Below are positions 10,385 to 33,258 of a DNA stretch of 33,388 bases, piece by piece. The position numbers were made by a program, and so were the translations under genes. Origin of the DNA: Magnetococcales bacterium (GTDB lineage Bacteria > Pseudomonadota > Magnetococcia > Magnetococcales > UBA8363); the NCBI GenBank assembly GCA_015660855.1, contig JACSDG010000124.1, positions 1 through 33,388 of the forward strand, given 5' to 3'. Each line of letters opens with the position of its first letter. The first letter of the stretch is position 1. Under the pieces are notes generated by a model. The model saw only the letters and a list, made by a program, of their open reading frames with translations, had not been told where the DNA came from and ran no database searches.

Positions 10385-11246
10385 TCAGGAAGGACTCGCC
10401 GGTTCTGGTGGTACGACATCTTCCACAGGTTCAGTCTTTTCCTCTGGTTTTGGCTTTACCTCTTCCGCCGGGGGAGGTGTGTTCTGGTTGGGATCTGCCG
10501 CCCGTTCCAGACTGGGAACAACTTGTTCGATACCCTTTACGGATTCCTTGATTGCACCGGCATCGGTCGCAGCCTGGGAAACGGTGCTGGCGGCCTGTTT
10601 GGCATTTACGTTTGCAGCGTTTGAGTTGGCTATGGCACTGGCTACTTCCTTACTGCTGTCCCTGACCGCCTGATTGATGGAATCCGTACTCATGCCAGAA
10701 GCTTTGGCTACTGCCGCCACGACATCGGCAGCATTGGCACCAGAGGACTGAATGACTGCCCCTGCGACGGCACCGTTGACACCGGGTCCGGCTTCCCTGG
10801 TGACGGAATTGGCCACAGCCGCCGCGACATCCGCACCCGCCATTTGGACCACCGAAGCGGCCACCGAAGCGGCCACCTCGGAACCTCCAACTTTGGTAAC
10901 CGCAGCGGCAATATCCGCTGCCGCCGCCTTGCCCGCAACCTGGGTCACCGCCGCCGCCACCGAGGCGGCACTGGCGGACCCAGCCTCCTTGGTGACAGCA
11001 GAGGCAATATCCGCTGCCGCAGAGGCCCCGGCCAACTGGGTTACGACGGCCGCAATACTGGCGGCCGCTCCGGCACCTGCCGCCCTGGTAACCATGGTTG
11101 CCACGGCCACCGCTGCTTCTGGAGCTATGGCCACCGTAGCGGCCGATACCTGCACGGCAGCTTGAGCTTGTACATCCGCTGGCATGGCATTGACCGCCGC
11201 CGCAGAAACGCCCAGTCCGATTCCTGCCAGGTGACCCGCTCACCGA
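10385..11246 (-). CDS. Ala-rich repeat and Pro-rich tail, C-terminal part of the FecR-like protein (frameshifted)
   Basis: This open frame is the natural continuation of the FecR-domain protein, in a different frame from the N-terminal part. After a lead-in (about AGHLAGIGLGVSAAAVNAMP) come eight tandem 16-residue units with a V-T-x-x-A-G core. An Ala/Ser/Lys region and a Pro/Glu-rich tail (PPPAEEVKPKPEEKTEPVED and onward) end the protein. In the N-terminal frame the same DNA reads as a Gly/Cys/Arg-rich string, which marks that frame as wrong here. The switch lies between about 11236 and 11246. No separate ribosome binding site was found, so it is probably not an independent gene. The role is unknown; repeats plus a Pro-rich tail suggest an extended envelope or secreted protein. 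Confidence 0.65.
10709..11092 (-). repeat. Protein-level tandem repeat: eight 16-residue units
   Basis: Val-Thr (or Val-Val/Val-Ile) recurs every 16 residues without slippage across eight units, each followed at constant distance by an A-G or S-G pair and then an Ala-rich helix-like segment. Examples are VTQLAGASAAADIASA and VTKEAGSASAASVAAA. At DNA level the 48-bp units have diverged, so this is an old repeat array, not a recent slippage expansion. Confidence 0.85.
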
Positions 11247-12497
11247 AGTCTCGACGACCAGGCTGGCGACATCGGAACTGGCACCCACCGCTGCTCCTAC
11301 AATCTGCGCCACTTCATCCAGATTCGGGGCAACCTGGGTGGCACCGGATATGACCGTTTTTGTGGATGTCTGCTGATTGGCCTTGGTTTGCTGTTGCTGG
11401 CTGTTGGAATGGTTGGCAACATTGGCGGCGGCATTGGGATATTGTCGCGAAGCTTGAGCCAATAAATTGGCCTTGGCCTCGGAGGGCGGACTGGCGGCAT
11501 CAAACATGTTCAACTTTCCCGCATCCACCAGCAGAGCCAGGGATTCCCTGGCAGCAGCAAAAGCACTGGTGACAAGAAAGTCCTGTCGTCCCCACCCATC
11601 CGCAAAGGTTTTCCACGCCGAAGCCGGGGTTAAGTCAGTGAAAAAAAGGGAGGAGGGGGCTAAAAGGCTTTGTTTTTTTCTGGGGTCGGTTTTTGACGCA
11701 CGTTGTTGATCGGTTATGGAAAGCTGGTTCATTTGTGCATCGATCAAAATCTGCTCCGGGGTCAAGGTGGGAGACGGAGGCTCCGCCGATCCCAACTCCG
11801 CAACCACATAACCCATCCCTTGTTCGGTCAGGGTGGGGGGCATTTTATCGGCTCCCGGAGGCAACACGCGGCCACTGGAAAAGGCGGTGGCCTGTCCAGA
11901 ACTCAAAGGCAACTGGCCGCCCTTGTTACTCAACAAGCCTTCCCCTTCGGAAAGCATCATGAAGAAAGGGACATTTTCCTCGACCACCCCCTCAAGTGCT
12001 GTTCCCCGCACTCCAACCAATGCCATGGGGGTGTTGAAGCTGACACTGGGTTTTTTAACCTTGAATCCGGAGTTGTAGCGAAAGGCACCCTTGACGATGT
12101 CCACGGCACTGGTGGCCTGGCTCTCTGCCGGACTGAAAGAATACTCCGACACCCGAATCCGGGAATCGGGGCCCACGGTCATTTTGGAACCGTCCCTGAA
12201 GGTGATAACGGCCTTGGATGCGGCTTCGGTGATCAATGTGTCGGAAACCAGAATCGGATCGTTTAGCACAGGCGTCCGTGTACCGGATTCGCCCTCAAGC
12301 CGAACTGTCTTTTCCAGAAATGTGATCCGTCCCGCATGAACCGGACCGGAAGGCTGGGCAGCCGCAGATACGCTGTTTTGACCGCCTGTCCCTTCCGCCG
12401 CCATGGGTTGGGACAGGGAAAAGAACAGGGACAGGATGCCCAGGAACAGGTGTAGGACTATACCATGATTGTTGGATCTGCTTACTAGACGTACCAT
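11236..12497 (-). CDS. FecR-domain exported protein, N-terminal part (frameshifted gene)
   Basis: From the ATG at 12497 the product has a signal peptide (hydrophobic GIVLHLFLGILSLFFSLSQP, then an AAEG site near residue 34). A FecR-type domain follows at about residues 55-175 (DPILVSDTLITEAASKAVIT, FRDGSKMTVGPDSRIRVSEY, then FNTPMALVGVRGTALEGVV). A low-complexity Gln/Asn/Ala region leads into the repeat part. FecR domains of this stand-alone kind are periplasmic or secreted and are not the sigma-factor regulator with an anti-sigma tail. The same frame stays open to 10650, but beyond about 11240 its composition becomes Gly/Cys/Arg-rich and unlike protein, so one extra base or a two-base loss near 11236-11246 is inferred. 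It is divergent from the efflux genes. Confidence 0.75.
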
Positions 12498-12803: not shown

Positions 12804-13964
12804 ATGGAAATATCACTTTTCAGGTCCCATTTTTTTGCTTTGGTCATCCTTTTTGGATCCTTTCTGGCATCCTGTTCCAAGGGGGAGGAGGCTGGCAAGA
12901 AAAAAATGGACAATCCGTCCACTCCGGTCACTACCGTTGCGGTCGTCCAAAAAAATATTCCTCTGATCATCCACGCCGTGGGTAACGCCGAAAGTTGCCG
13001 GACGGTGGCGATCAAAGCCCAGGTTGACGGAGAAATCACCAGGGCCTATGTCACCGATGGCCAGGAGGTGCGGGAAAAAGATCCGCTTTTCGATTTGGAT
13101 GATCGACGCTATCGCCACCGTCTGGCCCAGTTGCGAGCCAATCTTGACAAAGACCTGGCCCAACTGGAACAGGCCCACTCCAAGGAGCGTCGCCAAACGC
13201 TCCTGAACAAGGAGAAGATAGCCTCCGAGGAAAATCTGGCGTCCATGGTGGCCAACCGGAAAATGGCGGAGGCCAGTGTTGCCGCAGACCGGGCCGCCAT
13301 TGCCGAAGGAGAACTGCAACTGGGCTTTACCCGTATTTCTGCCCCCATTGCGGGGATGACCGGGCGCATCCTCATGCAACCCGGTAACGTCGTCAAAGCC
13401 AACGATACGGCTCCCCTGGTGGTCATCAACCAGATGGATCCCATGTGCATTTCCTTTTCCGTTGCCGAACACCATCTGGCAAGCATTCGCGACAACCATG
13501 CCCAAGCCCCTTTGACGCTGCAAGTCACCTCCGACCGGGAGGGGATCGCTCCTGTGCCCGCCACCTTGCTTTCCATTGATAACGCCATTGATCGCCAAAC
13601 CGCCTCCATTCGCCTCAAGGCTCAGGCGGACAACGGCAAGCGTCGCCTTTGGCCGGGATTGTTTGTTTCCGTCGAGTTAAAATTGTTTGACCGCCCCAAC
13701 GCCCTGGTCATTCCTGCCCAGGCCGTCCAAACCGGCACCAAGGGAATTTTTGTCTATGTGGTCAAACCGGATGCAACTGTCGAGCAGCGTTCCATCACCC
13801 TCGCCCAGGAAAGCAAGGAAGAAGCGGTTATCGACACCGGCCTGAATCTTGGGGAAATGGTTGTCACCGTGGGCCAATGGCGCCTCAAACCTGGGGCCAA
13901 GGTGGAAACTGCAAAGTCCAAAGAGACCGATCCGGAGAAAAAAGGGCAGGGTGATAAAAAATGA
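12804..13964 (+). CDS. RND efflux periplasmic adaptor (membrane fusion lipoprotein)
   Basis: The 386-residue product has a lipoprotein signal peptide with lipobox FLASC, cysteine at residue 24. The AcrA/HlyD order follows: first barrel-sandwich half (VAIKAQVDGEITRAYVTDGQ), a helical hairpin (about 100-165), the second half (RISAPIAGMTGRILMQPGNV), then beta-barrel and membrane-proximal domains (ALVIPAQAVQTGTKGIFVYV, LNLGEMVVTVGQWRLKPG). It would link the inner-membrane RND pump to an outer-membrane channel. AAAGGA stands at a good distance before the ATG. The stop overlaps the pump start by ATGA, so translation is probably coupled. The substrate is unknown. Confidence 0.93.
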   Translation: MEISLFRSHFFALVILFGSFLASCSKGEEAGKKKMDNPSTPVTTVAVVQKNIPLIIHAVGNAESCRTVAIKAQVDGEITRAYVTDGQEVREKDPLFDLDDRRYRHRLAQLRANLDKDLAQLEQAHSKERRQTLLNKEKIASEENLASMVANRKMAEASVAADRAAIAEGELQLGFTRISAPIAGMTGRILMQPGNVVKANDTAPLVVINQMDPMCISFSVAEHHLASIRDNHAQAPLTLQVTSDREGIAPVPATLLSIDNAIDRQTASIRLKAQADNGKRRLWPGLFVSVELKLFDRPNALVIPAQAVQTGTKGIFVYVVKPDATVEQRSITLAQESKEEAVIDTGLNLGEMVVTVGQWRLKPGAKVETAKSKETDPEKKGQGDKK

Positions 13965-15748
13965 ACATCACTGCCTTTTTTATCCATCGACCGGTAACCA
14001 CCGTCCTTTGCATGGTGGGTCTTCTGTTTTTCGGTTTATTGAGCTATGGCCTGCTGCCGGTTGCCGCGTTGCCCACGGTGGATTATCCCACGTTGCAGGT
14101 TTCCGCATCCCTCCCTGGGGCTTCCCCTGACACCATGGCCAATTCGGTCGCCCTGCCTTTGGAGAAAGAATTTTCCACCATTGCCGGCCTTGAAACCATG
14201 ACCTCCACCAGCAGCATGGGATCGACGCAGATTTCCCTTCAGTTTACTCTGAATCGAGACATTGACGCCGCCGCCCAGGATGTCCAGGCGGCCATTTCTT
14301 TGGCGCAACGGCGATTACCCAGCAACATGACTTCCACCCCCTCTTTTCGCAAAGTCAATCCTGCCGATCAACCCATTTTTTATATTGCTTTGACCTCGGA
14401 AACGCTTCCCCTGACCAACATTTCCGATTTTGCCGATACCACCCTTTCCCAACGCATTTCCATACTCCCCGGAGTGGCCCAGGTGAGTATTTACGGTCGC
14501 CAAAGTCCGTCGGTACGGGTCAAGGTCAACCCCAACGCCCTGGCAGCCAACAACCTTTCCCTGGAAGACGTGGAGCAGGCCATCCAACAAAACAATCCCA
14601 ACCTGCCCAGTGGTTTTCTCATCAGTCCCAATCGACTGACCTCCCTGGAAACCCCCAATCGCATGCTGACGGCCCAAAGTTTCCGATCCATCATCATCAA
14701 CCAGAACAATGGGGTTCTCCTGCGTTTGGATGAGGTTGCCCGAGTTATCGATGGCCCAGAGAATGATCTGTCCGCCGCCTGGTTCAATACCACCCAGGGG
14801 GTTGTCCTGGCCATCCAACGCCAACCTGGCTCCAATACCATCGCCGTCGCCGATGCCATCCGCGAGGTTGTCCCCACCCTTCTTAAACAACTTCCTGCCG
14901 CCGTGGAACTGAACATTCTCTATGATCGTTCCGTCAGTATTCGTGAGTCGGTACGCGATGTTCAACTCACCCTGCTGTTTTCTCTCGCTCTGGTGGTGTT
15001 GGTGACCTACCTGTTTTTGGGCAACGCCTCGGCAACGTTGATCCCCAGTCTCGCCCTCCCCATTTCCCTGGTGGGGGTTTTTCCCCTCATGCTGTATCTG
15101 GATATGAGTATCAATATCATTTCCCTCATGGCCCTTACCCTGTCGGTAGGTTTGGTGGTGGACGACGCCATTGTCATGCTGGAAAACATCATACGTAACA
15201 TGGAAGAGGGGAAAACGGCCTGGCAGGCTTCTCTGGATGGGGGACGGCAAATTTCTTTTACCATTGTCTCCATGACGCTTTCCATTTCGGCTGTTTTTCT
15301 TCCCGTCCTATTCATGGAGGGGATCCTGGGACGTCTATTGCACGAATTTGCCATTGCCATCATGGCGGCGGTGATCCTCTCCGGCGTTGTTTCTCTGTCT
15401 TTGACTCCGATGCTGTGTTCCCGCATTCTCAAACCCCATGATCCTTCCCGGGCCAATTTGATTATCCGGGGCAGCGAGGCGGCTTTCCTTGCCCTGAAAA
15501 GGGGGTATGCCCGTTCCCTGGATGTGTCCATCCGCTACCGTCGTGTGGTCCTCCTGCTTTTTTTCGGTATGGCCGTTTGGTCCATTCAGGTGGGGCAGGA
15601 CATGCCCAAAGGATTCATGCCCACGGAAGACACCGGACAGATCCTTTGTTTTACCGAAGCCGAACAGGATATCGGTTTTTTCGACACCCATTGCCACCTG
15701 CGTCATGTCTTTCATTGGTGGCGGTTCAACGCCTTCCGCCCTCAATAA
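13961..15748 (+). pseudogene. RND efflux permease, N-terminal part (gene broken by a short deletion)
   Basis: The reading frame encodes about 585 family-matching residues of an MdtB/MdtC/MexF-like HAE1 pump: ITAFFIHRPVTTVLCMVGLL, PTVDYPTLQVSASLPGASPD, the porter segments, the LTLSVGLVVDDAIVMLENI motif with charged Asp-Asp in span 4, and FMPTEDTGQILCFTEAEQDI at the start of the second periplasmic half. Immediately afterwards the frame runs into unrelated residues and stops. The family sequence resumes in another frame at 15705. Compared with family members, about 44 nt are missing at this junction, which also explains the shift. The pump would exchange protons for substrate. As written it is not expected to make a full-length protein, unless the break is an assembly error. 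Confidence 0.85.
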
Positions 15749-16997
15749 TGGGAGGATTTTCATACGGTTAAAACCTATGAACCAACGCCCGCATGCCGAT
15801 GAAATTGTCAAACGATTGCGTCCCAAACTGGTCAAGGTTCCAGGGATCAAGGCGTTCATCCAGAATATTCCCTCCATTCGCATTGGTACGCGCCTGACCA
15901 AGAGTCAATATCAATTTACCCTCCAGGGGACGGAAACCGAGGAATTGTTTACCTGGGCGGACAAACTGGAAAAACAATTGCGTGAGTTGCCTGGGTTCCA
16001 GAATGTCACTTCCGACATGCAATTGGCCAAAACCCAGGCCATGGTGGAGATCGACCGGGACAAGGCAGCCTCTCTGGGTATTTCCCCGGAACGATTGGAA
16101 AAAACCCTTTATCAGGCTTTTGGGCCGAAACAGGTTTCGACTCTTTATGGTTCCAGCAGCCAGTTTGCTTTGTTGTTGGAGTTGGACGATCCTTTCAAGA
16201 CCGATCCGTCCATGTTGTCCCGTTTACGGGTGCGCGGTGCGAATAACACGCTTGTCCCTTTGGATGCGGTAGCCCGTATTTCCCGGACGGTGGGTCCGGC
16301 CTCCATTTCGCACCAGGGACAATTGCCTGCCATCACCCTGTCCTTTGATCTTGCCCCAGGTTTGGCTTTGAGTCAGGCTATGGATGCCATCGGCAAGGCT
16401 CGGGAAACCATGGGCATGCCCGACACCATCACCGCCAGTTTCCAGGGATCTGCCCAGGTCTTTCAGTCTTCCATGACCGGAATGGGTTGGCTGTTGGGAT
16501 TGGCTGTATTGGTGATCTACCTGGTATTGGGCATGCTCTACGAAAGTTACGTTCATCCCCTGACCATTCTGTCGGGTTTGCCCGCTGCCGGACTGGGGGC
16601 GTTGCTCACCTTGAAAATGTTCAATATGGAACTCAATCTTTTCAGCTATGTGGGTTTGATCATGTTGATCGGCATCGTCAAGAAAAATGCCATCATGATG
16701 GTCGATTTTGCCATCGAGGCGCAACGCAATGAGCATATGTCGGCACAGGAGGCGATTCGTCAGGCAGGTTTGGTTCGGTTTCGGCCCATCATGATGACAA
16801 CGATGGCCGCTCTTGTGGGGACTCTCCCCATCGCCTTGGGTTGGGGGGCGGGTGGGGAGGCGCGGCAACCCCTGGGTATCGCCGTGGTGGGAGGATTGAT
16901 CCTTTCCCAATGGCTGACTTTGTACATTACGCCGGTGATCTACCTTTATTTGGAAAAAATCCGTCCTTTCGTCGATCCGAAAAATAAAACTTTCTAG
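15705..16997 (+). pseudogene. RND efflux permease, C-terminal part (out of frame with the N-terminal part)
   Basis: Family similarity resumes with VMSFIGGGSTPSALNNGRIF and continues to the end: PGIKAFIQNIPSIRIGTRLT, FQNVTSDMQLAKTQAMVEID, the FQGSAQVFQSSMTGMGWLLG segment, LTILSGLPAAGLGALLTLKM, GLIMLIGIVKKNAIMMVDFA and the final LTLYITPVIYLYLEK. All expected spans of the second half are present. The first in-frame ATG (15705) is internal to a conserved motif, so it is not a natural start. The TAG stop at 16995-16997 lies inside the left end (CTAGGGCGTGTTGACAT) of a repeat element. Confidence 0.85.
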
Positions 16998-17215
16998 GGC
17001 GTGTTGACATTGTAACCGTTCCGTCCCCCGCCTTTTTTTCTTTAAAAGTATTGCGGGGGTCCGGGGGGGATCATCCCCCCCGGCGGAGGTTTGGAGGCAG
17101 CAGCCCACAAGGTTTTGTCTTTGAATTTGATTTTGATTTTACTGCCCCCCAAGGGGGGTCTAGGGGCGCAGCCCCAGGGTTTTGATTTTGACTTTATGCC
17201 CGCAGGGCATCCGGT
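16994..17215 (+). repeat. Composite dispersed repeat, copy 8 (long form)
   Basis: This copy has an alternative 5' part: CTAGGGCGTGTTGACATT, then GTAACCGTT, then a CCCCCGCCTTTTTTTCTTTA stretch. The standard unit then begins at ATTGCGGGGGTCC with hairpin 1, the weak hairpin 2 (TTGGAGGCAGCAGCCCACAA) and the TTTGATTTTG spacer. A CCCCCCAAGGGGGG module, GGGGCGCAGCCCC and the third hairpin ATGCCCGCAGGGCAT follow. The same long form with the GTAACCGTT part recurs at 22789. It separates the pump gene from the acyl-ACP synthetase gene. Confidence 0.9.
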
Positions 17216-17241
17216 TCCTGGTATGAATTGGGGGTGAATCC

Positions 17242-19323
17242 ATGTTCAGATGGTTGTTTCGGTGGTTGTTTCGTCTCCAGTGTGATGGTCTTGAAAACTT
17301 GTCGGGTCGTTTGGTCGCGGCCAATCGATGTTCTCGGTGGGATTGGGTGATTGTCACCGCATTTCTTGAAAAAGGCTCCTGGATCATCCTGCCTCCTGGA
17401 GAATTTCCGCTCGGTTATCGCCGATTTTTCGGTTACCACGTTCGGTTCATTCCCGAAGATCAGGTGGATCCGGAGTCACTGGCCCATCATGTTCGTCAGG
17501 GCCATACCGTTGTTTATTTTCCTGAACCCCTGTCTCCTTTTGCGGGACGTTTTCGCAAAATTTCCGTCGCCTTTGAAGTTTCATGTCCGCGTGCTGTCCT
17601 GGCCGTGCAGGGGACAGGACCGTGGCCATTGTCCAGGCGAACTTTTTCTGGAAAACGACACTGGTTTTCCCCGGTCCGGCTTTCCGCCGTGCCTCTGGAT
17701 CCTGATGGAGGTCACGATGCGTGGACTCTCCAGGATGGGCTGGGGCGGGCCATGATGGCATCACAAACCTTGGATACAACGCTATGGAACGCGTTACTCG
17801 GTGCGGCGCAGCATCATGGACGCAGGAAGGTGGTTCTGGAAGATGAAAACGGTCAGAGGCTGAACTATGGGCAGTTGATTTTCAAGGCCATCCTGTTGGG
17901 CCGACTGCTCGAACCCCAAACCCGAACGGGGGAGAGGGTGGGACTCATGTTGCCCACGACCGTTGGTACGGTTGTCACCTTCTTTGCCTTCCAGGCGGGA
18001 GGTCGGGTACCCACCATGCTCAATTTTTCCAACGGTCCTGAAACCATCTTGGCCACTTGTCGGACGGCTCAGGTGCGTTTGCTGGTGACCTCGCGTCTTT
18101 TCATTCAAAAAGCCCGTCTTTTCGACTTGATGGATGCCCTGGCCGAATTGAACATTGTTTACCTCGAAGATCTCAGATCCTCTGTCACTCCTGGTATCCT
18201 GCTTTATGCTTGGTGGTTTTCCCATGTTACCCGATGGGGGCGAAAGCCTGTCTCTGGTGACGCTGAAGCGGTCGTCCTTTTCACCTCCGGATCGGAAGGA
18301 ATTCCCAAGGGGGTGGTGCTGTCCCACAACAATCTGTTGGCCAACGCCAAACAGGTATTCATCCGCTTTGATCTTGGGCCTGCGGATGTGATTCTGCATG
18401 TGTTACCGATGTTTCACGCTTTTGGTCTGACTGTGGCAACCCTGGTGCCGTTATTGGCGGGGATGCGTATTTTTTGTTATCCGTCGGTCCTTGATTATCG
18501 CACTGTCCCCAAAATGGCATGGAAAGCCGGGGCAACATTATTGGCGGGAACCGATACCTTCCTGAAAGGGTATGGCCGCATGGCCGATCCTATCGATTTT
18601 GCCGCGTTGCGGTATTGTTTTGCCGGGGCCGAAACGTTGCGGGCATCGACACGTAACTTGTGGATGGAAAAATTTGGCATTCGTATCCTGGAAGGGTATG
18701 GCGCCACCGAAACCGCTCCGGTTTTGTCGGTCAATGCCCCGGAGGCGTATCGTTGTGGTTGTGTTGGGCGCATGTTGTCGGGAATAGAGTGGAAATTGCA
18801 GCCGGTTTCCGGACTGAAAAATGGTGGTCGTCTGTTTGTGCGTGGACCCAATGTGATGCTGGGGTATTTGTTGTCGCATGCCCCTGGCGTGTTGCAGTCG
18901 CTTTGGACCGGAATCGATCCGGGATGGTATGACACCGGCGATGTCGTGCAGGTGGACACCCACGGTTTTGTTTCAATTTTGGGACGCGTCAAGCGATTTG
19001 CCAAGATTGCCGGGGAAATGGTCTCTCTGGCTGCCGTGGAGTCCGTGGCTATGGAGGAATGGCCCGACAGCCTGCATGCAGCCGTGGTTGTGGCCGACCC
19101 GCAGAGGGGCGAAACATTGGTCATGGTGACCGAAGATCGAAAAGTTAACCGACTTACTTTTGCCAAGGCATTGAAAGAGCGTGGTCTAAGCCTTCTGCTT
19201 TTGCCTTTTCGGTTCGTCTACCATGATTCCCTGCCGGTATTGGCTTCTGGAAAGCTGGATTTTATACAATTGGAAATTTTTGTGCGGGAGGGGAAAAATA
19301 ACATGGATACAACAGATTCCTGA
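17242..19323 (+). CDS. Aas-like fusion: degenerate acyltransferase domain plus acyl-ACP/acyl-CoA synthetase
   Basis: The 693-residue product resembles E. coli Aas (719 residues): an N-terminal PlsC-like domain (1-190) and a C-terminal AMP-forming ligase. The ligase motifs are complete: LFTSGSEGIPKGVVLSH (about 345-362), GYGATETAP (about 485), YDTGD (about 562), GRVKRFAKIAGE (about 577) and SGKLDF with its catalytic Lys (about 669). In the PlsC part the usual N-H-x-S-x-x-D reads NRCSRWD, so the catalytic His is Arg29. The FPEG block reads FPEP at 93-96. The acyltransferase is therefore probably inactive, leaving fatty-acid activation as the likely activity. GGGGGTG precedes the ATG. It stands between the pump and TolC genes, separated from each by a repeat. 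Confidence 0.85.
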   Translation: MFRWLFRWLFRLQCDGLENLSGRLVAANRCSRWDWVIVTAFLEKGSWIILPPGEFPLGYRRFFGYHVRFIPEDQVDPESLAHHVRQGHTVVYFPEPLSPFAGRFRKISVAFEVSCPRAVLAVQGTGPWPLSRRTFSGKRHWFSPVRLSAVPLDPDGGHDAWTLQDGLGRAMMASQTLDTTLWNALLGAAQHHGRRKVVLEDENGQRLNYGQLIFKAILLGRLLEPQTRTGERVGLMLPTTVGTVVTFFAFQAGGRVPTMLNFSNGPETILATCRTAQVRLLVTSRLFIQKARLFDLMDALAELNIVYLEDLRSSVTPGILLYAWWFSHVTRWGRKPVSGDAEAVVLFTSGSEGIPKGVVLSHNNLLANAKQVFIRFDLGPADVILHVLPMFHAFGLTVATLVPLLAGMRIFCYPSVLDYRTVPKMAWKAGATLLAGTDTFLKGYGRMADPIDFAALRYCFAGAETLRASTRNLWMEKFGIRILEGYGATETAPVLSVNAPEAYRCGCVGRMLSGIEWKLQPVSGLKNGGRLFVRGPNVMLGYLLSHAPGVLQSLWTGIDPGWYDTGDVVQVDTHGFVSILGRVKRFAKIAGEMVSLAAVESVAMEEWPDSLHAAVVVADPQRGETLVMVTEDRKVNRLTFAKALKERGLSLLLLPFRFVYHDSLPVLASGKLDFIQLEIFVREGKNNMDTTDS

Positions 19324-19383
19324 AGCGTGCCTTTGTCGTATATAGAGCCATTTTACGGCGAAGATTTCCGGCCATTTGTGCAC

Positions 19384-19503
19384 GTATCGGAAAAACAAAG
19401 TTTGGCAAAAATTTTTGCGGGGGTCCGGGGGGGATCATCCCCCCCGGCGGAGGTTTGGAGGCAGCAGCCCACAAGGTTTTTTTTTTGCCCGAAGGGCATC
19501 ATG
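19384..19503 (+). repeat. Composite dispersed repeat, copy 9
   Basis: The copy has the full 5' box (GTATCGGAAAAACAAAGTTT, TTGGCAAAAATTTTTGCGG), perfect hairpin 1, the weak hairpin 2 variant shared with copies 8, 14 and 15, a ten-T run directly after AAGG, and the third hairpin TGCCCGAAGGGCATCATGTT. It starts 60 nt after the stop of the synthetase gene. The hairpin followed by TTTTTTTTTT would be a plausible intrinsic terminator on the plus strand. Confidence 0.9.
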
Positions 19504-19718
19504 TTCACGGTGTGCGGCTTGTTGGTTGCTGAAAACGGCGAATTGGGTCTGATGTGGTTTAACTTATAGAAAAGGATTATTTTCTCTCTCCCGGTAAAAA
19601 GAGTGTCATCTTGCGGCACGGTCCTGCCGATACCATAGACCGAGTGTCAGGCTACTCTTTTTCAAGGAAAATCGGATTGTCCACGCTCCCCAATCATCGT
19701 CTCCAAAGTCTTCAGGCC
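19504..19718. promoter_or_regulatory. Leader region of the TolC-adaptor pair
   Basis: After the repeat come about 215 bases without a credible gene. The frame of the TolC gene stays open upstream of its ATG, but those residues do not look like a signal peptide. A promoter for tolC is expected here; I could not place its boxes. Confidence 0.3.
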
Positions 19719-21239
19719 ATGCGAAAGTGGCTTACGGGTCTGTTGGCGGTGTCTGTTCTTTCGGCGTGTGCCGTCAAACCGGAGCCGTTGCCAGAGTCCA
19801 GCATTATGCAGCGCACGCAAGACGACAAGGCTGCCTATTACAAGGATGTGAAACCGGTCGTGCGTGCCATTCCCTTGGCCGAGGCCATGGCGCGGGCGAT
19901 TCGTTACAACCTGGACCACCGTCTGAAAACCATGGAATCGGCCTTGGCCATGGGACAATCCAAGCTGACCGGTTATCAGCTCCTTCCTCAGGTGGCTCTC
20001 CAGGCGGGTTATTCCAAACGTTCCAATGAACTTGGTTCTTCAAGCCGTTCGTTGATTACCGGTCAAGGCAGCCTGGAATCGTCGACTTCCTCGGAAAGGA
20101 GCTATGGCGATGCCGATCTGACCATGACCTGGAACATTCTTGATTTTGGCGTCAGTTATTTCAAGGCCAGGCAGCAGGCGGATCGCTATCTGGTATCGGA
20201 GCAGAGGCGACGCAAGGTCATTCACAACATCATTCAGGAGGTGCGGCAGGCTTATTGGCGGGCCGCAGTAGCCCAGGAGTTGCTGCCCGATATTGAAAAT
20301 TTTCTCGTTGAGGCCAATCTGGCTTTGGAAGATGCCAAAAAATCGGGCGATGCCCTGTTGCAGTCGCCGTTGGATACCCTGAGATATCGCATGGGGTTGT
20401 TGGAAACCGTTTATCAGATCATTACTTTGCAGCGGGATCTGTCGGTCGCCAAGACGCAGTTGGCTGCTTTGATCAATGTGGACCTGAAGGAAAACTTTCG
20501 CCTGGAAACGCAGAACCAACAGGACATGTCCGCCCCAAAAATTCCCTATGATATTGATCTCATGGAAAAAATGGCTCTTTTTTTCCGCCCCGAATTGCGT
20601 GAAGAAGATTATCAAAAGCGGATTGACATAGCCGAGACCAAATTGACTCTGTTGCAGGTTCTTCCCGGTTTAAGTTTGGAAGCCGGTCTGCATACATCCA
20701 CCAACCACTATCTTTTCAATCAACAATGGGCCGATGGTGGTCTTAAGCTGGCGTGGAATTTGATCAATCTGGCCGCCGGTAATGATACGCTGGATGTCGC
20801 CGGTATCAGGGAGGCGACAGGGACCATGCGCCGGCTTTCCTTGGGTATGGCCATATTGACCCAGGTCCATGTGGCTCTCGTGCGCTACAATCAGACCCTG
20901 GAGGAGTTTGAGCTGGTCAAGACCATAAGCCAGACTGCCGACCAGATTCAACACCATTCTGCTGCGGCGCGCCAGACCATGACGGGATTGGATGTGATCC
21001 AAGCCCAGGCACGGGCCATCTACAGGAGATTGCAAATGGGGTTATCCTACGCCGAGTTGCAAAATTCTGCCGGCCAGATTTACGTCTCCATCGGTCTGGA
21101 TCCACTTCCGAGTTCGTTGGAATCGACCGATCTTGACACCTTGACGGCCACTCTGGAAGGGATGATTCAGCGTTGGCAGGTGGGCGAAGTGGAATTGGGA
21201 ACCCTTGTCGATAACCGCTTGCAGGGCCAATCGGGATGA
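19719..21239 (+). CDS. TolC-like outer-membrane efflux lipoprotein
   Basis: The 506-residue product starts with a lipoprotein signal (MRKWLTGLLAVSVLSAC, lipobox LSAC with cysteine at 17), which decides the ATG at 19719. It contains two copies of the outer-membrane efflux protein domain: helices around IPLAEAMARAIRYNLDHRLK, a long AALINVD-ending first repeat, and a second repeat ending in GLSYAELQNSAGQIYVSIGL. Asp-Pro-rich NodT/OprM-type linkers are not obvious. The family forms trimeric outer-membrane barrels with periplasmic alpha-helical tunnels. Its stop overlaps the next adaptor gene by ATGA, so the two are translationally coupled. It may serve the RND pump upstream, a distant transporter, or both. 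Confidence 0.88.
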   Translation: MRKWLTGLLAVSVLSACAVKPEPLPESSIMQRTQDDKAAYYKDVKPVVRAIPLAEAMARAIRYNLDHRLKTMESALAMGQSKLTGYQLLPQVALQAGYSKRSNELGSSSRSLITGQGSLESSTSSERSYGDADLTMTWNILDFGVSYFKARQQADRYLVSEQRRRKVIHNIIQEVRQAYWRAAVAQELLPDIENFLVEANLALEDAKKSGDALLQSPLDTLRYRMGLLETVYQIITLQRDLSVAKTQLAALINVDLKENFRLETQNQQDMSAPKIPYDIDLMEKMALFFRPELREEDYQKRIDIAETKLTLLQVLPGLSLEAGLHTSTNHYLFNQQWADGGLKLAWNLINLAAGNDTLDVAGIREATGTMRRLSLGMAILTQVHVALVRYNQTLEEFELVKTISQTADQIQHHSAAARQTMTGLDVIQAQARAIYRRLQMGLSYAELQNSAGQIYVSIGLDPLPSSLESTDLDTLTATLEGMIQRWQVGEVELGTLVDNRLQGQSG

Positions 21240-22045
21240 AAATGATTCCGTTGATCTTGTTGGTTGGGGGAATTTTCCTGGGGATGGGAACGGGTCATGC
21301 CTTCGATGCGAAGCCGCCCCAGGATCGTGTGCTTTCAGCCATGGAAGAGACGGGGGGAGGGGAGCCTTTGCGTGGATTGCTGGTTGCATCGCAGGAGGCG
21401 ATTCTTTCCAGCGAGATTGCCGGGCGGGTTTTAGAAATTCGCCATGAAACGCGTCAAAGTTTCAAGAAAGGTGAAATTTTGCTTCGGTTTCATTGTCCCG
21501 ACCGGGAAGCGCGTCTGAAAAAAGCGCGTGCCCAGTTGGATGCCATCAATCAACGTCTTAAGGTTCACCGCCAACTTGTTGAGTTGCGGTCGGCCAGTTT
21601 GCTGGATGTCGAGATTATGGAGGCGGAACGACTTGGGGCGACAGCGGAAGTGGCGGTACATCAGGCAGAGGTTGAGCAGTGCACCCTTTATGCCCCTTTT
21701 GCGGGCAGAATTGCCGAAAGACTGGTCAAACCCTACGAAAGCGTCAACATGGGCCAGCCATTGTTGGATGTCGTGGGTCAGGCCCCTTTTGAGATTCATA
21801 TCATTTTGCCTTCGGACCTGTTGCCGGGAGTCCATCCGGGCACGCCCGTCACAATCGTTCTGGACGAGACCAAAAGTCGCCATCAGGCTCGCATCAGCAG
21901 TTTGGGAGGGCGCATTAATCCTGCTGGTCAAACGGTACGGGTCGTTGCAAAAATGGCGGGGGTTGCAGACGATCTTATCCCTGGGATGAGTGGTCCTGTG
22001 ATGATTGAATTCGATCCGCTATCCTCTTCTGCTGCGCCGCGTTGA
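21236..22045 (+). CDS. Short periplasmic adaptor (HlyD/RND-MFP type)
   Basis: The 269-residue product has a signal peptide (MKMIPLILLVGGIFLGMGTG, cleavage likely after GHA). A compact adaptor core follows: LLVASQEAILSSEIAGRVLE, a short helical hairpin (about residues 85-145), CTLYAPFAGRIAERLVKPYE closing the barrel-sandwich domain, and a beta-barrel with IILPSDLLPGVHPGTPVTIV. It lacks the lipobox of the first adaptor and is more than 100 residues shorter. It is coupled to the TolC-like gene by an ATGA overlap. No inner-membrane transporter gene follows, so its pump partner is either the upstream RND protein or encoded elsewhere. Confidence 0.85.
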   Translation: MKMIPLILLVGGIFLGMGTGHAFDAKPPQDRVLSAMEETGGGEPLRGLLVASQEAILSSEIAGRVLEIRHETRQSFKKGEILLRFHCPDREARLKKARAQLDAINQRLKVHRQLVELRSASLLDVEIMEAERLGATAEVAVHQAEVEQCTLYAPFAGRIAERLVKPYESVNMGQPLLDVVGQAPFEIHIILPSDLLPGVHPGTPVTIVLDETKSRHQARISSLGGRINPAGQTVRVVAKMAGVADDLIPGMSGPVMIEFDPLSSSAAPR

Positions 22046-26412: not shown

Positions 26413-27837
<1,425 letters not shown>

Positions 27838-27923
27838 GTATGGAATGGTCGAGAGGGAAGGAATCGGGTGCGGGTTATTTTTTCCCGCAAGAGAGGCCGC
27901 AGCCATAGGGACTCCACTCTGAC

Positions 27924-28799
27924 ATGGCGTCCAGGGATTCTGCATTTACCACGAATGACTCTCTTGATGAGACGCTGTTCCAGCGTCTTAGCGCGGAGAT
28001 ACATGCCCGATTTGGTATACTTTTGCCCATCACCAAGAAAGGTTTGCTGACTTCGGGGTTGCATCGGCGGATGGGCAGCCTTGGCATCGTCAGTATGGCC
28101 GAGTACAGCGGCATTTTATTTGGTCATGATGAAAACGATGAGCGGGAACTGGTGTTGTTGTTGGACGCCATGACCAGTTATTCCACTAAATTTTTTCGCA
28201 ATTCCCGGCAATTTGAGTTTCTTGCCCAGACGGCTCTGCCGGAATTGATCAAGATGCACGGTGCTGGAATCGGTCGGGTTCTTAACATTTGGAGTGCTGG
28301 TTGCGCCACGGGTGAGGATTCGTACACTTTGGCCATGGTGCTTTGTGAGTTTGCGCAGCACTATCCTGGCATTCAATTTAAATCAAAAGTCTTGGCAACC
28401 GATGTCAGTCAGCGAATATTGGAATTTGCGAAAAATGCCGTCTATGAAATGGAAAAGGTTCAGTCCATCCCGGATTTATTGAAAAGAAAATATTTGCTTA
28501 AGAGTAAGGATCGACGTAGGAGTTTAGCCAAGGTGGTTCCGGAGTTGCGAGCCATGGTTAATTTCCGGCAACTGGATTTTATGGACCCTGCTTTTGGTTT
28601 GCGGGAGGAGATGGATGTTATTTTTTGCCGTAATATTTTGAGCTATTTTGATCGGGACACTCAAGAGCAACTGGTGAACAAACTTTGCAGCCATATGGTT
28701 CCTGGGGGTTATCTGTTTGCCGGTCCCTCGGAATCTCTTCACAGCCTCGCCACCCCGTTGGTACCGTTAGCTCCGTCGATTTATCGGTTGTCGTCCTGA
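27924..28799 (+). CDS. cheR: Chemotaxis protein methyltransferase CheR
   Basis: The 291-residue product has the helical N-terminal CheR domain (1-90, ending in TSYSTKFFRN, the T-x-FFR motif). A SAM-binding Rossmann domain follows, with NIWSAGCATGEDSYTLAM, VLATDVSQRILEFAKNAVYE, VNFRQLDFMDP and FCRNILSYFD. It methylates receptor glutamates using S-adenosylmethionine. No C-terminal TPR extension is present. The order cheB-cheR on the same strand with a short gap suggests one transcript, matching their opposing roles in adaptation. AGGGA lies upstream of the ATG at a slightly long spacing. It converges on a coiled-coil protein gene, with a dispersed repeat between them. Confidence 0.96.
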   Translation: MASRDSAFTTNDSLDETLFQRLSAEIHARFGILLPITKKGLLTSGLHRRMGSLGIVSMAEYSGILFGHDENDERELVLLLDAMTSYSTKFFRNSRQFEFLAQTALPELIKMHGAGIGRVLNIWSAGCATGEDSYTLAMVLCEFAQHYPGIQFKSKVLATDVSQRILEFAKNAVYEMEKVQSIPDLLKRKYLLKSKDRRRSLAKVVPELRAMVNFRQLDFMDPAFGLREEMDVIFCRNILSYFDRDTQEQLVNKLCSHMVPGGYLFAGPSESLHSLATPLVPLAPSIYRLSS

Positions 28800-28808
28800 C
28801 AGTTTGAA

Positions 28809-28976
28809 GTATCGGAAAAATAAAGTTTGGCAAAAATTTTTGCGGGGGTCCGGGGGGGATCATCCCCCCCGGTGGGGGTTTGGGGGCAAAGCCCCCAAGG
28901 TTATTTTTTGCCAATGAAAACAAAAAGATAACTTCACTGTTTCTGACTTTGATTTTTGCCCGCAAGCATGATGTTT
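28809..28976 (+). repeat. Composite dispersed repeat, copy 13
   Basis: The copy begins GTATCGGAAAAATAAAGTTT 9 nt after the cheR stop. It has perfect hairpin 1 and a perfect long hairpin 2 (TTGGGGGCAAAGCCCCCAA, 28880-28898). An interrupted spacer with about 40 extra bases leads to a damaged third hairpin (TTGCCCGCAAGCATGATG). It fills the whole gap between two convergent genes. Confidence 0.88.
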
Positions 28977-28980
28977 ACTA

Positions 28981-29571
28981 TTAGTTGGCAACGGTTTTCA
29001 GGAAGACCTGTTCGGAAACTTCATCGCGTTGTTTGATGACGCCATCAATCTGTTGCAGGATAGAGTTTAGTTGTTGGTGCGCATTTTCAATATCGGCACG
29101 GATTTGTGGGACTTTGCCCAGGAGGATTTCAATCTGTCCCTTGCGCTTGTTGATGATCGCATCATTGGCCTCTTTTGCCTTGACAAGATCCAAGCGTTGG
29201 GGTTCCGTCGTAACCATCGGATCAATCAGGGAGAGTTCCTGGGCTTTGCGATATTTATTCACAACCTCGACTACGGGACGTTCTTCCACGATCAAGGCTT
29301 TTTGTGCCGCGATGATTTCTGCCTCAAGGTCAAGCAACCCTTTTTGCATCTGTTGGATGGACACCTGTTGCTGGACATGCGCCGCGCTCAGACTTTCCAA
29401 TGAACCGTTCAATTCCTGGATACGCTGCAACCGTGCTGCGGAATGATCTGGATAGGTCCAATAACCTGTCCCAAGGGCGTCGGGCAGTGGTATCATCAAC
29501 CAAGCCGTTGCAGCCAGGGCGACGCCGGCTATAACAATCCGGTGTGCCGAAAATTTATACTTTAAATTCAT
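28981..29571 (-). CDS. Membrane-anchored coiled-coil protein of unknown function
   Basis: The 196-residue product has a short basic N-terminus, one hydrophobic span (about residues 11-32, IVIAGVALAATAWLMIPLP), then a long helical region (about 45-190) rich in Gln, Glu, Leu and Ala. Heptad-like spacing suggests a dimeric coiled coil on the periplasmic side. I recognise no enzyme motif or named family. The ATG at 29571 is preceded by GAAGGGG, a good ribosome binding site, which rules out the much longer open frame upstream. It is divergent from the AI-2E family gene with 101 bp between them. A structural or scaffolding envelope role is possible but not shown. Confidence 0.7.
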   Translation of the reverse strand: MNLKYKFSAHRIVIAGVALAATAWLMIPLPDALGTGYWTYPDHSAARLQRIQELNGSLESLSAAHVQQQVSIQQMQKGLLDLEAEIIAAQKALIVEERPVVEVVNKYRKAQELSLIDPMVTTEPQRLDLVKAKEANDAIINKRKGQIEILLGKVPQIRADIENAHQQLNSILQQIDGVIKQRDEVSEQVFLKTVAN

Positions 29572-29672
29572 ACCCCTTCTCCATATGATTTTGATAGTCC
29601 TTTGGGTCAACGTGTACCTGTCCACTCCCGACACATTGACAAACACCAGAAAAAGCCGAAGCCATTGATCCC

Positions 29673-30812
29673 ATGGTAAGAAAATCCCCCACCCCCGCCA
29701 GCAAACCCCGGCCCCCCTACGAACAGGGGTTTCTGCTCTTTCTGCTGGTATTGGCCATCGTGGGATTGTTGTGGTTGTTCGCCCCTTTTCTCCCTGGGTT
29801 GTTCCTGGCCATATTGCTGGCAACGGCGACCTATCCGCTGTACCGCCATCTCGCCCAGCGTCTATCCATTGGATCGGATAAAGCAGCCCTGATCATGACT
29901 GTTTTGATCTTTTTTCTCGTTGTTTCGCCCCTGCTCTATCTGCTGTCGGTCAGTGCCGTGATGGCGGGAGATGTGGTTGAGCGTCTGCGCGATTGGTTTT
30001 CCGGATTTGAAAACGACGCCGCCTTGGCCAAAGCCCTTGGAAGTATCATCCATACGTTTCCACTTCCTGAATTTATCAGGGGTTTTCTTTTGGACCAGGC
30101 CAGCGATAACCAGGAAGCTCTGATTCAAAATGTAACCAAGGCCCTATTGTTTTTATTCAAGGGAATTACCGATAACAGTATTTCCTTTCTTTCTTCCCTG
30201 CTCTGGGTTGTTTTTTCTCTTTTTTTCTTTTATCGCGATGGCCCCCATCTGATTCAGAAATTACGTTTGTTAACCCCCTTACCCAACCATTACGATGATT
30301 TTCTTTTGCAGAGGTTTTCAGGTTTGGCGACGGTGCTCACCATAAGCACTCTGACGGTTTCCCTGACCCAGGGGCTTACCTTTGCTACGGTCACAGCGTT
30401 TATCGGTCTCCCCTGGTTTTTTCTTGGTTTAGGTCTGGCTGTTACCTCCTTCATTCCGATTCTTGGTGGATTTATTCTCTGGGGTCCCTTGTCCTATTAT
30501 CTTTTTTCTACGGGTAGGGAAGAATCGGGGGTGTTTTTGTTTTTTTGGGGGGTGATCGTCAATGGTTTTCTTATTGACAACATTTTCAGACCCATCCTGA
30601 TTGGCCGTTTGTCCCAATGGTGCGCCACTGAAGATTCCAACAGCGATTTTTCCGCTCTGGACCATACGCTGCTCACAACCCTGGCCACGTTTGGAGGCAT
30701 TATGAACTTTGGTATTTTGGGTCTTTTTTTCGGTCCGGTCATTGCGGCTATGGCGATTGCGGTTTTTGAACTCTACGAGAAAATCTACAGCGGCAACCTG
30801 GATCGATCCTGA
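29673..30812 (+). CDS. AI-2E transporter / PerM family membrane protein
   Basis: The 379-residue product has seven to eight predicted spans and the layout of the AI-2E exporter-like (PF01594) family. A Pro-rich N-terminus and spans around FLLFLLVLAIVGLLWLFAPF and LIMTVLIFFLVVSPLLYLLS come first. An amphipathic central region follows, then a C-terminal half with LAVTSFIPILGGFILWGPLS, NGFLIDNIFRPILIG and FGGIMNFGILGLFFGPVIAA, the family's conserved P-x-x-G-G and G-x-x-G-x-x-x-GP blocks. Members include TqsA, YdiK and PerM and a few Na+/H+ antiporters; the substrate here is unknown. An insertion between the last two conserved blocks (QWCATEDSNSDFSALDHTLL) is unusual for the family. It precedes fliQ by about 150 bp. 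Confidence 0.88.
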   Translation: MVRKSPTPASKPRPPYEQGFLLFLLVLAIVGLLWLFAPFLPGLFLAILLATATYPLYRHLAQRLSIGSDKAALIMTVLIFFLVVSPLLYLLSVSAVMAGDVVERLRDWFSGFENDAALAKALGSIIHTFPLPEFIRGFLLDQASDNQEALIQNVTKALLFLFKGITDNSISFLSSLLWVVFSLFFFYRDGPHLIQKLRLLTPLPNHYDDFLLQRFSGLATVLTISTLTVSLTQGLTFATVTAFIGLPWFFLGLGLAVTSFIPILGGFILWGPLSYYLFSTGREESGVFLFFWGVIVNGFLIDNIFRPILIGRLSQWCATEDSNSDFSALDHTLLTTLATFGGIMNFGILGLFFGPVIAAMAIAVFELYEKIYSGNLDRS

Positions 30813-30965
30813 CTTTCGCGTCGTCGCCAACATGCTGTTGGGACTAAAGAATTATATGGTTGACCGATTATTTTTCATGGACAGACCAAAACGATCAGGT
30901 ACAATTCACCTTTGCCGATGGGTGGCACGGGTTTGTCGCCAATATCGCCTACATGAGGAAGGGTC

Positions 30966-31235
30966 ATGCCCACAGAAACCGTCCTGGAACTGGTCATCGA
31001 TGCCCTGAAAACCGCCTTGATGATTTCCGCACCTATGCTGCTCACAGCCCTTGTGGTCGGCATTGTTATTTCGCTGTTTCAATCGGTTACGCAAATCCAG
31101 GAGATGACTCTTACGTTCATCCCAAAAATTTTGGCCACCTTTCTGGCCCTTACCTTGACGCTTCCCTGGATGCTGGAAACCATGATGGACTATTTTAAAC
31201 GTTTGTTCGATTCCATTCCCGGCATTGTCAATTGA
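30966..31235 (+). CDS. fliQ: Flagellar biosynthesis protein FliQ
   Basis: The 89-residue product has the standard FliQ length and two membrane spans. VLELVIDALKTALMISAPML leads into LVVGIVISLFQSVTQIQEMT, then LTFIPKILATFLALTLTLPW and the MMDYFKRLFDSIP tail. The V-G-x-x-I-S-x-F-Q-x-x-T-Q-I-x-E-x-T-L stretch is the family signature. FliQ packs around FliP and FliR in the helical export gate of the flagellar type III secretion system. GAGGAAGGGT precedes the ATG. fliR follows 17 nt after the stop. fliP, which often precedes fliQ, is absent from this position. Confidence 0.96.
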   Translation: MPTETVLELVIDALKTALMISAPMLLTALVVGIVISLFQSVTQIQEMTLTFIPKILATFLALTLTLPWMLETMMDYFKRLFDSIPGIVN

Positions 31236-31252
31236 GTTGACGGAGAACGCTT

Positions 31253-32047
31253 TTGGATCCCCAGGCTCTCATCGACTTTCTCGGTTTTTCGGTCGGGGAG
31301 GTGGAACGGGCCTTACTGGTTGTCGCCAGAGTGACTGGTTTGTTTCTATCCGCCCCGTTTTTCTCCCGTGCCGTAGGTCCCAGACGCGTCAAAACAGCCT
31401 TCATCCTGGCCTTGTCCGTGGTTATTTTCCCTTTGGTGTCTCCCTGGAGCGGTGAAGGCAAAGGGCAAGTCCCTTCCATGATTGCCGCTGGGATTACGGA
31501 AGTTGTCATCGGTGCCATCATTGGCATGCTGGTTCACTGGGTGCTTGTTGCTGTCCAGGTGGCGGGTGCCATCATTGGATTTCAAATGGGACTTTCCATG
31601 GCCATGGTGATGGATCCCACTTCGGGCATCCAGGAAGGTGTGTTGTCCAACCTTCTTTATCTGACTGTTTTAATGTTATTTTTGACCGTTGGCGGGCACT
31701 ATTTGCTTATTGAGGGGCTGATTCGATCTTTTCAAACCCTTCCTTTGGGGGAAGGACTCCCGCCAGCGGGCAATGTTTTGGAGGCGAGCATGAAAGCTAT
31801 TGCGGCCATGTTTGAGCTGGCCATCCTTATTTCTGCTCCTATCGTTGTTTCCACGACGTTGCTCTATGTGGGAATGGGATTGATCAATCGCGCTTCGCCG
31901 CAAATTCAGGTTTTCTTTCTGTCCATGCCTGTTGCCCAGATTGTCGGGTTTATCATCTTGGGGCTGACCATGATTCTTTTTTCCAAGGTTTTGCTTCGGG
32001 AAATGGACACTTTTTTTTCCATCGCCTTCAAGGCGGTCGGATTTTAG
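31253..32047 (+). CDS. fliR: Flagellar biosynthesis protein FliR
   Basis: The 264-residue product has six predicted spans and FliR motifs: RVTGLFLSAPFFSRAVGPRR near the N-terminus, GAIIGMLVHWVLVAVQVAGA, GFQMGLSMAMVMDPTSG, and INRASPQIQVFFLSMPVAQI near the end. FliR joins FliP and FliQ in the export gate. The start is a TTG at 31253: GGAG lies about 8 nt upstream, the frame matches family N-termini, and no ATG is available at this point. A dispersed repeat begins 2 nt after the stop and separates it from flhB. Confidence 0.95.
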   Translation: MDPQALIDFLGFSVGEVERALLVVARVTGLFLSAPFFSRAVGPRRVKTAFILALSVVIFPLVSPWSGEGKGQVPSMIAAGITEVVIGAIIGMLVHWVLVAVQVAGAIIGFQMGLSMAMVMDPTSGIQEGVLSNLLYLTVLMLFLTVGGHYLLIEGLIRSFQTLPLGEGLPPAGNVLEASMKAIAAMFELAILISAPIVVSTTLLYVGMGLINRASPQIQVFFLSMPVAQIVGFIILGLTMILFSKVLLREMDTFFSIAFKAVGF

Positions 32048-32049
32048 AA

Positions 32050-32172
32050 GTATCGGAAAAATAAAGTTTGGCAAAAATTTTTGCGGGGGTCCGGGGGGGA
32101 TCATCCCCCCCGGCGGAGGTTTGGAGGCAGCAGCCCACAAGGTTTTTCTTTTGATTTTGACTTTGATTTTGA
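32050..32172 (+). repeat. Composite dispersed repeat, copy 14, inside the flagellar operon
   Basis: The copy is nearly identical to copies 9 and 15 over the 5' box, hairpin 1 and the weak hairpin 2 (TTGGAGGCAGCAGCCCACAA). It ends in the TTTTGATTTTGACTTTGATT spacer without a third hairpin. It begins 2 nt after the fliR stop and ends 16 nt before the flhB ATG, so the flhB ribosome binding region lies at its edge. Confidence 0.92.
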
Positions 32173-32187
32173 TGAGCCTTTTGATCC

Positions 32188-33258
32188 ATGGCAGAAGATA
32201 CCGACCAAGACTCAAAAACCGAAGACCCTACCTCCAAAAGGACGCAGGATGCCCGCGGCAAGGGGCAGGTTGCTTCATCCAGAGAAGTGGGAACGGCTCT
32301 GTTGCTTCTGGTGGCCACGTTAACTTTTTATTTTCAGGGCGAAAAATTATGGGTGTCTATGCAAACCAAAATGCGCCTTTTTTTCGGCGGTTTTATCAGT
32401 GACGACATCCAACCTCAGGGGGTCGTTGTTTTGGTCCAGGATCTTTTGAAAGGGATTGTCCTGGATTTGACCCCACTGTTTATGTTTTTCATGATTGTTG
32501 GAATTTTAGGTTCTATCATACAGCATGGATTTTTGATCACCCTGGATCCCATCATGCCAAATTTTGGCAAGATCAATCCACTCCAGGGGTTGAAAAGGCT
32601 TTTCTCCATGCGTTCTTTGGTTGAACTGTTCAAGTCCATCCTGAAATTATCGGTCATATCGATTGCCGTTTATGTGGCGTTAAAGGGCAGCATTGTTGAA
32701 TATATGGGATTGATGGATACCAATCTGACCCATGTTACGGCTGTTCTTGGCAGGGACATTCTCCATCTTTTTGTTTTGGTTACCATTGCCTTCATGTTTT
32801 TGGCTGTGATTGATTTTGTGTACCAACAGCACGAATATGTTAAAGGTTTGCGCATGACCAAGCAGGAGGTCAAGGATGAGCAAAAACAAATGGAAGGTGA
32901 CCCTCTGATCAAAGGGCGCATTCGTCAGATTCAGAGGGAAATGGCACAGAGACGTATGATGGAAGAGGTCCCCAAGGCGGATGTGGTCATCACCAACCCG
33001 ACGCATTATGCAGCGGCTTTGGTTTACAAACAGGGAGAAATGATGGCTCCGAAACTTATTGCCAAGGGTCGGGGACGTATTGCAGAGCGTATCCGTGAGA
33101 TTGCCAGGGAAAACAAAATTGTGCTGGTAGAGAATCCGCCGTTGGCCCGGTCTTTGTATTCCGATGTGCCGTTGGATTCGATTATTCCGCCCCAATTGTT
33201 CAAGGCGGTGGCGCAGGTATTGGCCTATGTTTACAGTTTGAGGCGCAGCAGATCCTGA
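32188..33258 (+). CDS. flhB: Flagellar export switch protein FlhB
   Basis: The 356-residue product carries the FlhB N-terminus (DSKTEDPTSKRTQDARGKGQ), four membrane spans (about 30-215) and the cytoplasmic domain with the self-cleaving NPTH motif at residues 270-273 (VVITNPTHYAAALVY). Cleavage between Asn and Pro switches export from rod/hook to filament substrates. The conserved KGRGRIAERIREIARENKIV and ENPPLARSLY segments follow. The ATG at 32188 matches the family start but has only a weak GATGAG upstream. fliQ-fliR-flhB order is standard, but here a repeat splits fliR from flhB. Confidence 0.97.
   Translation: MAEDTDQDSKTEDPTSKRTQDARGKGQVASSREVGTALLLLVATLTFYFQGEKLWVSMQTKMRLFFGGFISDDIQPQGVVVLVQDLLKGIVLDLTPLFMFFMIVGILGSIIQHGFLITLDPIMPNFGKINPLQGLKRLFSMRSLVELFKSILKLSVISIAVYVALKGSIVEYMGLMDTNLTHVTAVLGRDILHLFVLVTIAFMFLAVIDFVYQQHEYVKGLRMTKQEVKDEQKQMEGDPLIKGRIRQIQREMAQRRMMEEVPKADVVITNPTHYAAALVYKQGEMMAPKLIAKGRGRIAERIREIARENKIVLVENPPLARSLYSDVPLDSIIPPQLFKAVAQVLAYVYSLRRSRS

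Follow-up and report, generated by a model that had tools for sequence, protein, structure and literature searches.

An Aas-like protein of Magnetococcales with arginine in place of the catalytic histidine of its acyltransferase domain and an intact predicted acyl-ACP ligase

The closest described system is LplT–Aas lysophospholipid repair, in which Aas joins an acyltransferase (AT) domain to an acyl-ACP synthetase domain. In the E. coli experiments presented in PMC11416262, the H36A substitution of Aas abolishes lysolipid acylation while leaving LplT binding intact, and the AT domain alone mediates LplT binding; in the complementation results of PMC13170283, AasH36A fails to complement and serves as an inactive allele. 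Stand-alone acyl-ACP synthetases of the AasS type, as portrayed for Vibrio harveyi AasS in PMC11271967, convert fatty acid, ATP and ACP to acyl-ACP without lysolipid acylation, and the PlsC/LPLAT acyltransferases (structure 5kym) offer a third comparison for the N-terminal half. A search of open-licence papers returned no report of a catalytically dead Aas paralogue, nor of Aas in Magnetococcales.

The window, the whole stretch of 33,388 nucleotides that was analysed (Magnetococcales bacterium, contig JACSDG010000124.1), encodes a relative of Aas with the following features.

17242..19323, + strand: Aas-like protein of 693 amino acids with an ATG start, an open reading frame with putative pseudo-acyltransferase and AMP-forming acyl-ACP ligase domains
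17242..17769, + strand: N-terminal LPLAT-like AT domain, residues 1–176, predicted to be catalytically dead
17326..17328, + strand: CGA codon of Arg29, opposite catalytic His36 of E. coli Aas in the alignment
17518..17529, + strand: FPEP codons in the sequence, residues 93–96, replacing FPEG
17770..19320, + strand: acyl-ACP/acyl-CoA ligase domain (AMP-binding) with intact motifs (PF00501, 1e-55, residues 189–543)

In a BLASTP comparison with E. coli K-12 Aas, taken from the reference genome, the protein shows 38% identity across 714 columns. Motif I reads N28-R29-C-S-R-W-D34 with R29 opposite H36, and motif III reads F93-P94-E95-P96 with P96 opposite the Gly of FPEG. An earlier note made from the letters alone had pointed to Arg in place of the catalytic His, to FPEP in place of FPEG and to intact ligase motifs; the alignment bears out both substitutions, and the A3, A5, A7, A8 and A10 sites of the ligase are present in all eight copies from the genus. 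The Aas-type NCBIfam profiles PRK06814 (1.9e-209, 698.4 bits, curated cut-off 1349) and PRK08043 (1.1e-159, 533 bits, curated cut-off 886) match across the whole protein, yet both scores lie below the curated cut-offs. Pfam recognizes the AMP-binding domain alone, and the AT domain of the window protein has no Pfam match at E 0.01. A profile of the AT domains of the wider clade described below matches PlsC structure 5kym at 5.8e-14, and an AT-only model (pLDDT 61.9), which is adequate for a fold match and inadequate for the geometry of Arg29, is matched by Foldseek to PlsC 5kym (5e-05) and LpxM 5kn7, and more weakly to PatA; a full-length model, for which two sequences were used, had a poor pLDDT of 39.9 and was set aside. 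The profile and the AT-only model point to retention of the LPLAT fold. The domain resembles PlsC/LPLAT enzymes in profile and fold and differs from them, in this genus, by the Arg at the His of HX4D and the altered FPEG.

Comparison within the genus covers eight genomes, that of the window and seven relatives, and each of them holds two Aas-like genes, one short and one long, the latter encoding an MFS–acyltransferase–ligase protein. The short copies of the seven relatives are 57–63% identical to the window protein and the long copies 42–45%. Every long copy reads NHVSFLD and FPEGR (8/8) and is a normal Aas. In every short copy motif I has NR, motif III has PEP and the Asp of HX4D is kept (8/8); in full, the third motif is FPEP or SPEP, and the next residue is Leu or Pro. 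Since R29 and PEP are invariant in all eight despite an AT identity of about 50%, their conservation reflects more than chance. A sequencing error behind the H to R change is ruled out by the eight genomes that carry Arg and by the PEP change that accompanies it, and the intact open frames of the genus speak against a pseudogene. In the frames placed for genomes G004, G013 and G019 the in-frame stops fall at the C-terminal end; the sole stop within the AT region belongs to G034, a clade member from another genus. No LplT gene is fused or adjacent to the short gene in the eight genomes, where each genome's only LplT-like match is the fused part of the long protein (8/8). The short protein resembles Aas in its two-domain architecture, near full-length identity and intact acyl-ACP synthetase motifs, and departs from it by the Arg, by FPEP, by the lack of an LplT gene or fusion and by its scores below both NCBIfam cut-offs. 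Its predicted reaction is that of AasS; unlike AasS, it keeps the LPLAT-like N-terminal domain and does not have the AasS domain architecture.

The two paralogues are constrained in opposite ways. In the short paralogue, the AT domain averages 50.3% identity with a mean dN/dS of 0.292 (28 genus pairs, of which 26 were computable) and the ligase domain 66.9% with 0.157 (27 pairs), while the long paralogue shows 84.5% identity and 0.086 for the AT domain and 77.5% and 0.111 for the ligase; all of these absolute dN/dS values are rough, as most pairs have a nearly saturated dS. The ranking of the domains by constraint is thus inverted, the AT domain being the tightest part of the long protein and the loosest part of the short one. 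In the short protein, purifying selection on the AT domain is relaxed yet present.

The search of the order took in 48 genomes at a threshold of E 1e-60 and gave a match in 44. Ligase-domain trees were built first with 61 rows and then with 94, the outside rows of the larger tree coming from 30 of the 74 genomes of the phylum outside the order with a match at E 1e-100, plus the alphaproteobacterial locus L023. In the 94-row tree, 35 short proteins, one per genome (35/48), form a single branch with SH-aLRT 100, and no other row enters it, the outside relatives being those placed in this tree. Tree placement assigns the window protein to an order-wide orthologous group. Members of the clade group mostly by family; acquisition of an odd copy by horizontal transfer is not supported, given this mostly family-wise clustering and the confinement of the clade to the order among the rows placed. 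Relatives from other families that consist of a ligase alone are placed elsewhere in the tree, not in this clade. A canonical Aas is present as well in 19 of the 35 clade genomes, and in the other 16 nothing Aas-like besides the clade member matches at E 1e-60, eight of these 16 genomes having a completeness of 90% or more and a contamination of 5% or less; of the remaining genomes of the order, nine have a canonical copy only and four have no match. The catalytic sites of the ligase are invariant in 35/35 clade members, and the A10 Lys is present in all 34 that are readable there.

An AT-like domain is present in 34 of the 35 clade members, the window protein included, and its motifs are worn in many ways. 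The column of the catalytic His holds H in 24 rows, R in eight (all from this genus), N in two and a gap in one; the Asp is kept in 27/35 rows, and His, Asp, Glu and Gly are kept together in a single row. Among AT-bearing rows outside the clade, His is found in 52/52 and FPEG(R) in 48/52, the four exceptions being a second paralogue of family f34. Only one AT column is invariant across 33 clade domains, an alignment that left out L064 (without the domain) and L055 (stop), vs 24 columns across 26 canonical domains. At E 0.01, Pfam Acyltransferase matches 26/26 canonical domains vs 17/33 clade domains; that 17 still match counts against reading the clade as ligase-only. In G008 (L064:8457-10036) the AT domain is lost altogether and a ligase alone starts right behind a glycosyltransferase-like gene, which amounts to a natural domain deletion, and tblastn found no significant match to an AT remnant beside it. 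Outside the genus, the clade rows share no replacement motif. Substitution of Arg for His is thus one outcome among several of a clade-wide decay. Conservation of Arg29, which the earlier note proposed to check in relatives, holds for 8/8 copies in the genus but stops there, as 24 of the 26 AT-bearing clade members outside it have the normal His, which by the test that the note itself had set counts in part against its reading; by these alignments, H to R is confined to this genus and the decay takes other forms across much of the order. As the His is kept in 24/34 AT-bearing members and the Asp in 27/35 rows, only in this genus and some further lineages is loss of the transferase firm.

The f34 loci (L097, L098, L099 and L100), from other genomes of the phylum, represent a separate short Aas-like lineage, with SHQSRFE or VHQSKLD in motif I and LPDA or FPDA in motif III, which accompanies a canonical long Aas in two of four fetched genomes. 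It is like the clade in being short and in having altered AT motifs, and unlike it in lying on a separate branch (SH-aLRT 100) outside the clade and in keeping the His.

We favor, with a probability of roughly 0.7 and on sequence evidence, the reading that the window protein is an Aas paralogue turned ligase-only, an acyl-ACP synthetase that keeps a pseudo-acyltransferase domain for folding or docking. Its C-terminal domain would activate free fatty acids with ATP and load them onto acyl carrier protein, as Aas and AasS do; both the fatty-acid activation and ACP as the acceptor are proposed by kinship with Aas, and CoA may be an alternative acceptor. The AT domain, with Arg and FPEP, would most likely be unable to acylate lysophospholipid. 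Given that R29 lies opposite H36 and that H36A inactivates the E. coli enzyme in the assays of PMC11416262, we strongly infer that transferase activity has been lost in this genus. The acyl-ACP product would feed the ordinary acyltransferases or fatty acid synthesis, and recycling of fatty acids would by that route be uncoupled from lysophospholipid repair, the protein probably only recharging fatty acids. The dead domain would owe its retention to a part in folding, in membrane contact or in docking. Conservation of Arg29 in the genus, together with an AT domain kept under weaker purifying selection, makes a non-catalytic role of this kind reasonable; docking in particular is suggested by analogy with LplT binding by the E. 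coli AT domain. The proposal in the earlier note of a fatty-acid-activating Aas relative with a dead transferase half used for binding or membrane docking hence stands in part: an intact ligase and a predicted-dead AT domain fit it and a non-catalytic use is plausible, docking as such is an analogy, and the export of lipids or acylated metabolites that the note attached to it does not hold up.

A broader version of this reading is possible, though tentative. In it, the clade would be an ancient order-wide Aas paralogue in which AT catalysis was lost independently in several lineages and the AT domain was kept as a docking module that tethers the acyl-ACP synthetase to the membrane or to the LplT part of the long paralogue. 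If so, fatty-acid recycling would be uncoupled from lysolipid repair, and in the single-copy genomes lysolipid repair would be absent or carried out by another enzyme.

An AT domain that is alive with changed chemistry or a changed acceptor, Arg29 and PEP being part of a new site, is unlikely. R29, W33, D34, W35 and P94-E95-P96 are invariant in 8/8 copies while the domain averages 50% identity, which speaks for a new site; but the genus copies agree at 37 of about 176 AT positions, which makes a handful of invariant residues unremarkable. Arg is, moreover, a poor general base, and the rest of the clade offers no shared substitute motif. The loss of activity of E. coli Aas upon H36A, as recorded in PMC11416262, also speaks against it.

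That the gene is on its way to loss, with an AT half that is merely decaying and a whole protein redundant to the long Aas, is quite unlikely. AT divergence, relaxed dN/dS, the AT deletion of G008, the in-frame stop of G034 and the canonical Aas found beside the clade member in 19/35 genomes are what such a fate would produce, and the G034 stop is as compatible with plain decay as with repurposing. However, purifying selection acts on the ligase, whose catalytic sites do not vary, the clade spans 35/48 genomes and supplies the sole Aas-like match in 16 of the 35, the eight well-completed genomes among them, and R29 and PEP do not vary within the genus. These observations favor the ligase-only enzyme over a dying one.

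The neighbors of the gene in the window are, in part, efflux genes.

12804..13964, + strand: RND periplasmic adaptor (TIGR01730), upstream of the Aas-like gene only in the window genome
13961..16997, + strand: RND permease (MdtB/MuxB-like) in two frames, 13961-15748 and 15507-16997, upstream only in the window genome
19611..21239, + strand: TolC-like outer-membrane efflux protein (PF02321)
21236..22045, + strand: HlyD/RND adaptor (PF13437), paired with the TolC gene

The setting between an RND pump and a TolC–adaptor pair, described in the earlier note, is therefore real in the window, where the RND adaptor–permease pair, the gene and the TolC–HlyD pair share a strand; its gene order is not conserved. 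By tblastn in the seven genus relatives, the RND pair is upstream of the Aas-like gene in 0/7, and an 80–85% orthologue of the permease with an open frame of at least 1029 amino acids lies on other contigs in five, the two orthologues inspected adjoining the same adaptor; G001 gave permease matches of only 43–47%, and G006 (75% complete) no permease match at E 1e-60. The window permease, as assembled, carries a frame-changing indel near 15680 relative to the intact copies of the relatives. The TolC–HlyD pair lies directly downstream in 6/8 genus genomes (5/7 relatives), and TolC orthologues occur in all eight; in G003 and G007 the orthologous pair is elsewhere, beside flhB, without the Aas-like gene. 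Upstream, five of the seven relatives share a cluster of 606-amino-acid open reading frames, which from its sequence we take to be aspartyl-tRNA synthetase. Across ORF clusters in 40 fetched loci of the order, a rubrerythrin/ferritin-like gene stands directly upstream in L066, L067, L072, L076 and L077 and, with a gap, in L059; spanning five families, it is the most widely conserved neighbor seen. A glycosyltransferase-like gene is directly upstream of the clade member in the three f14 loci. No conserved export partner emerged from the seven relatives and 40 loci, and promoter and terminator sites in 16900-19700 are no more frequent than in shuffled sequence. An export operon, in which the enzyme would activate or tether an acyl group on a lipid or metabolite exported by the RND pump and TolC–HlyD, has in its favor the flanking pairs and the TolC–HlyD adjacency in 6/8 genomes, but on gene order an efflux operon is rejected, with RND adjacency in none of the relatives, a frameshifted permease, TolC–HlyD apart from the gene in two genomes and different neighbors in other families, and such an export role is highly improbable. 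The efflux genes beside the Aas-like gene look incidental.

Other features of these loci deserve mention in their own right. In L130:3480-7480 (f13) and L131:5147-9155 (f12), a conserved gene coding for about 470 amino acids comes after the TolC–HlyD pair and is a possible partner of this TolC type. Window positions 26620-33258 hold CheB, CheR, AI-2E family transporter, FliR and FlhB genes, a chemotaxis–flagellar block near the efflux pair that is partly conserved in the genus. On the minus strand, 10653-12497 encodes a 615-amino-acid FecR-domain protein with weak similarity to the leptospiral lipoprotein models Lsa33 and LipL45.

For the annotation of this family, the ligase-only reading counsels that such proteins should not be labeled bifunctional acyltransferases, and the gene-order comparison that function should not be read from adjoining efflux genes. 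Lipid enzymes with an evolutionarily kept dead half lend themselves well to testing what lipid-binding domains do besides catalysis. As H36A spares LplT binding in the E. coli experiments of PMC11416262, nature may have built here, in the short Aas paralogue of this genus, a mutant that separates docking from catalysis.
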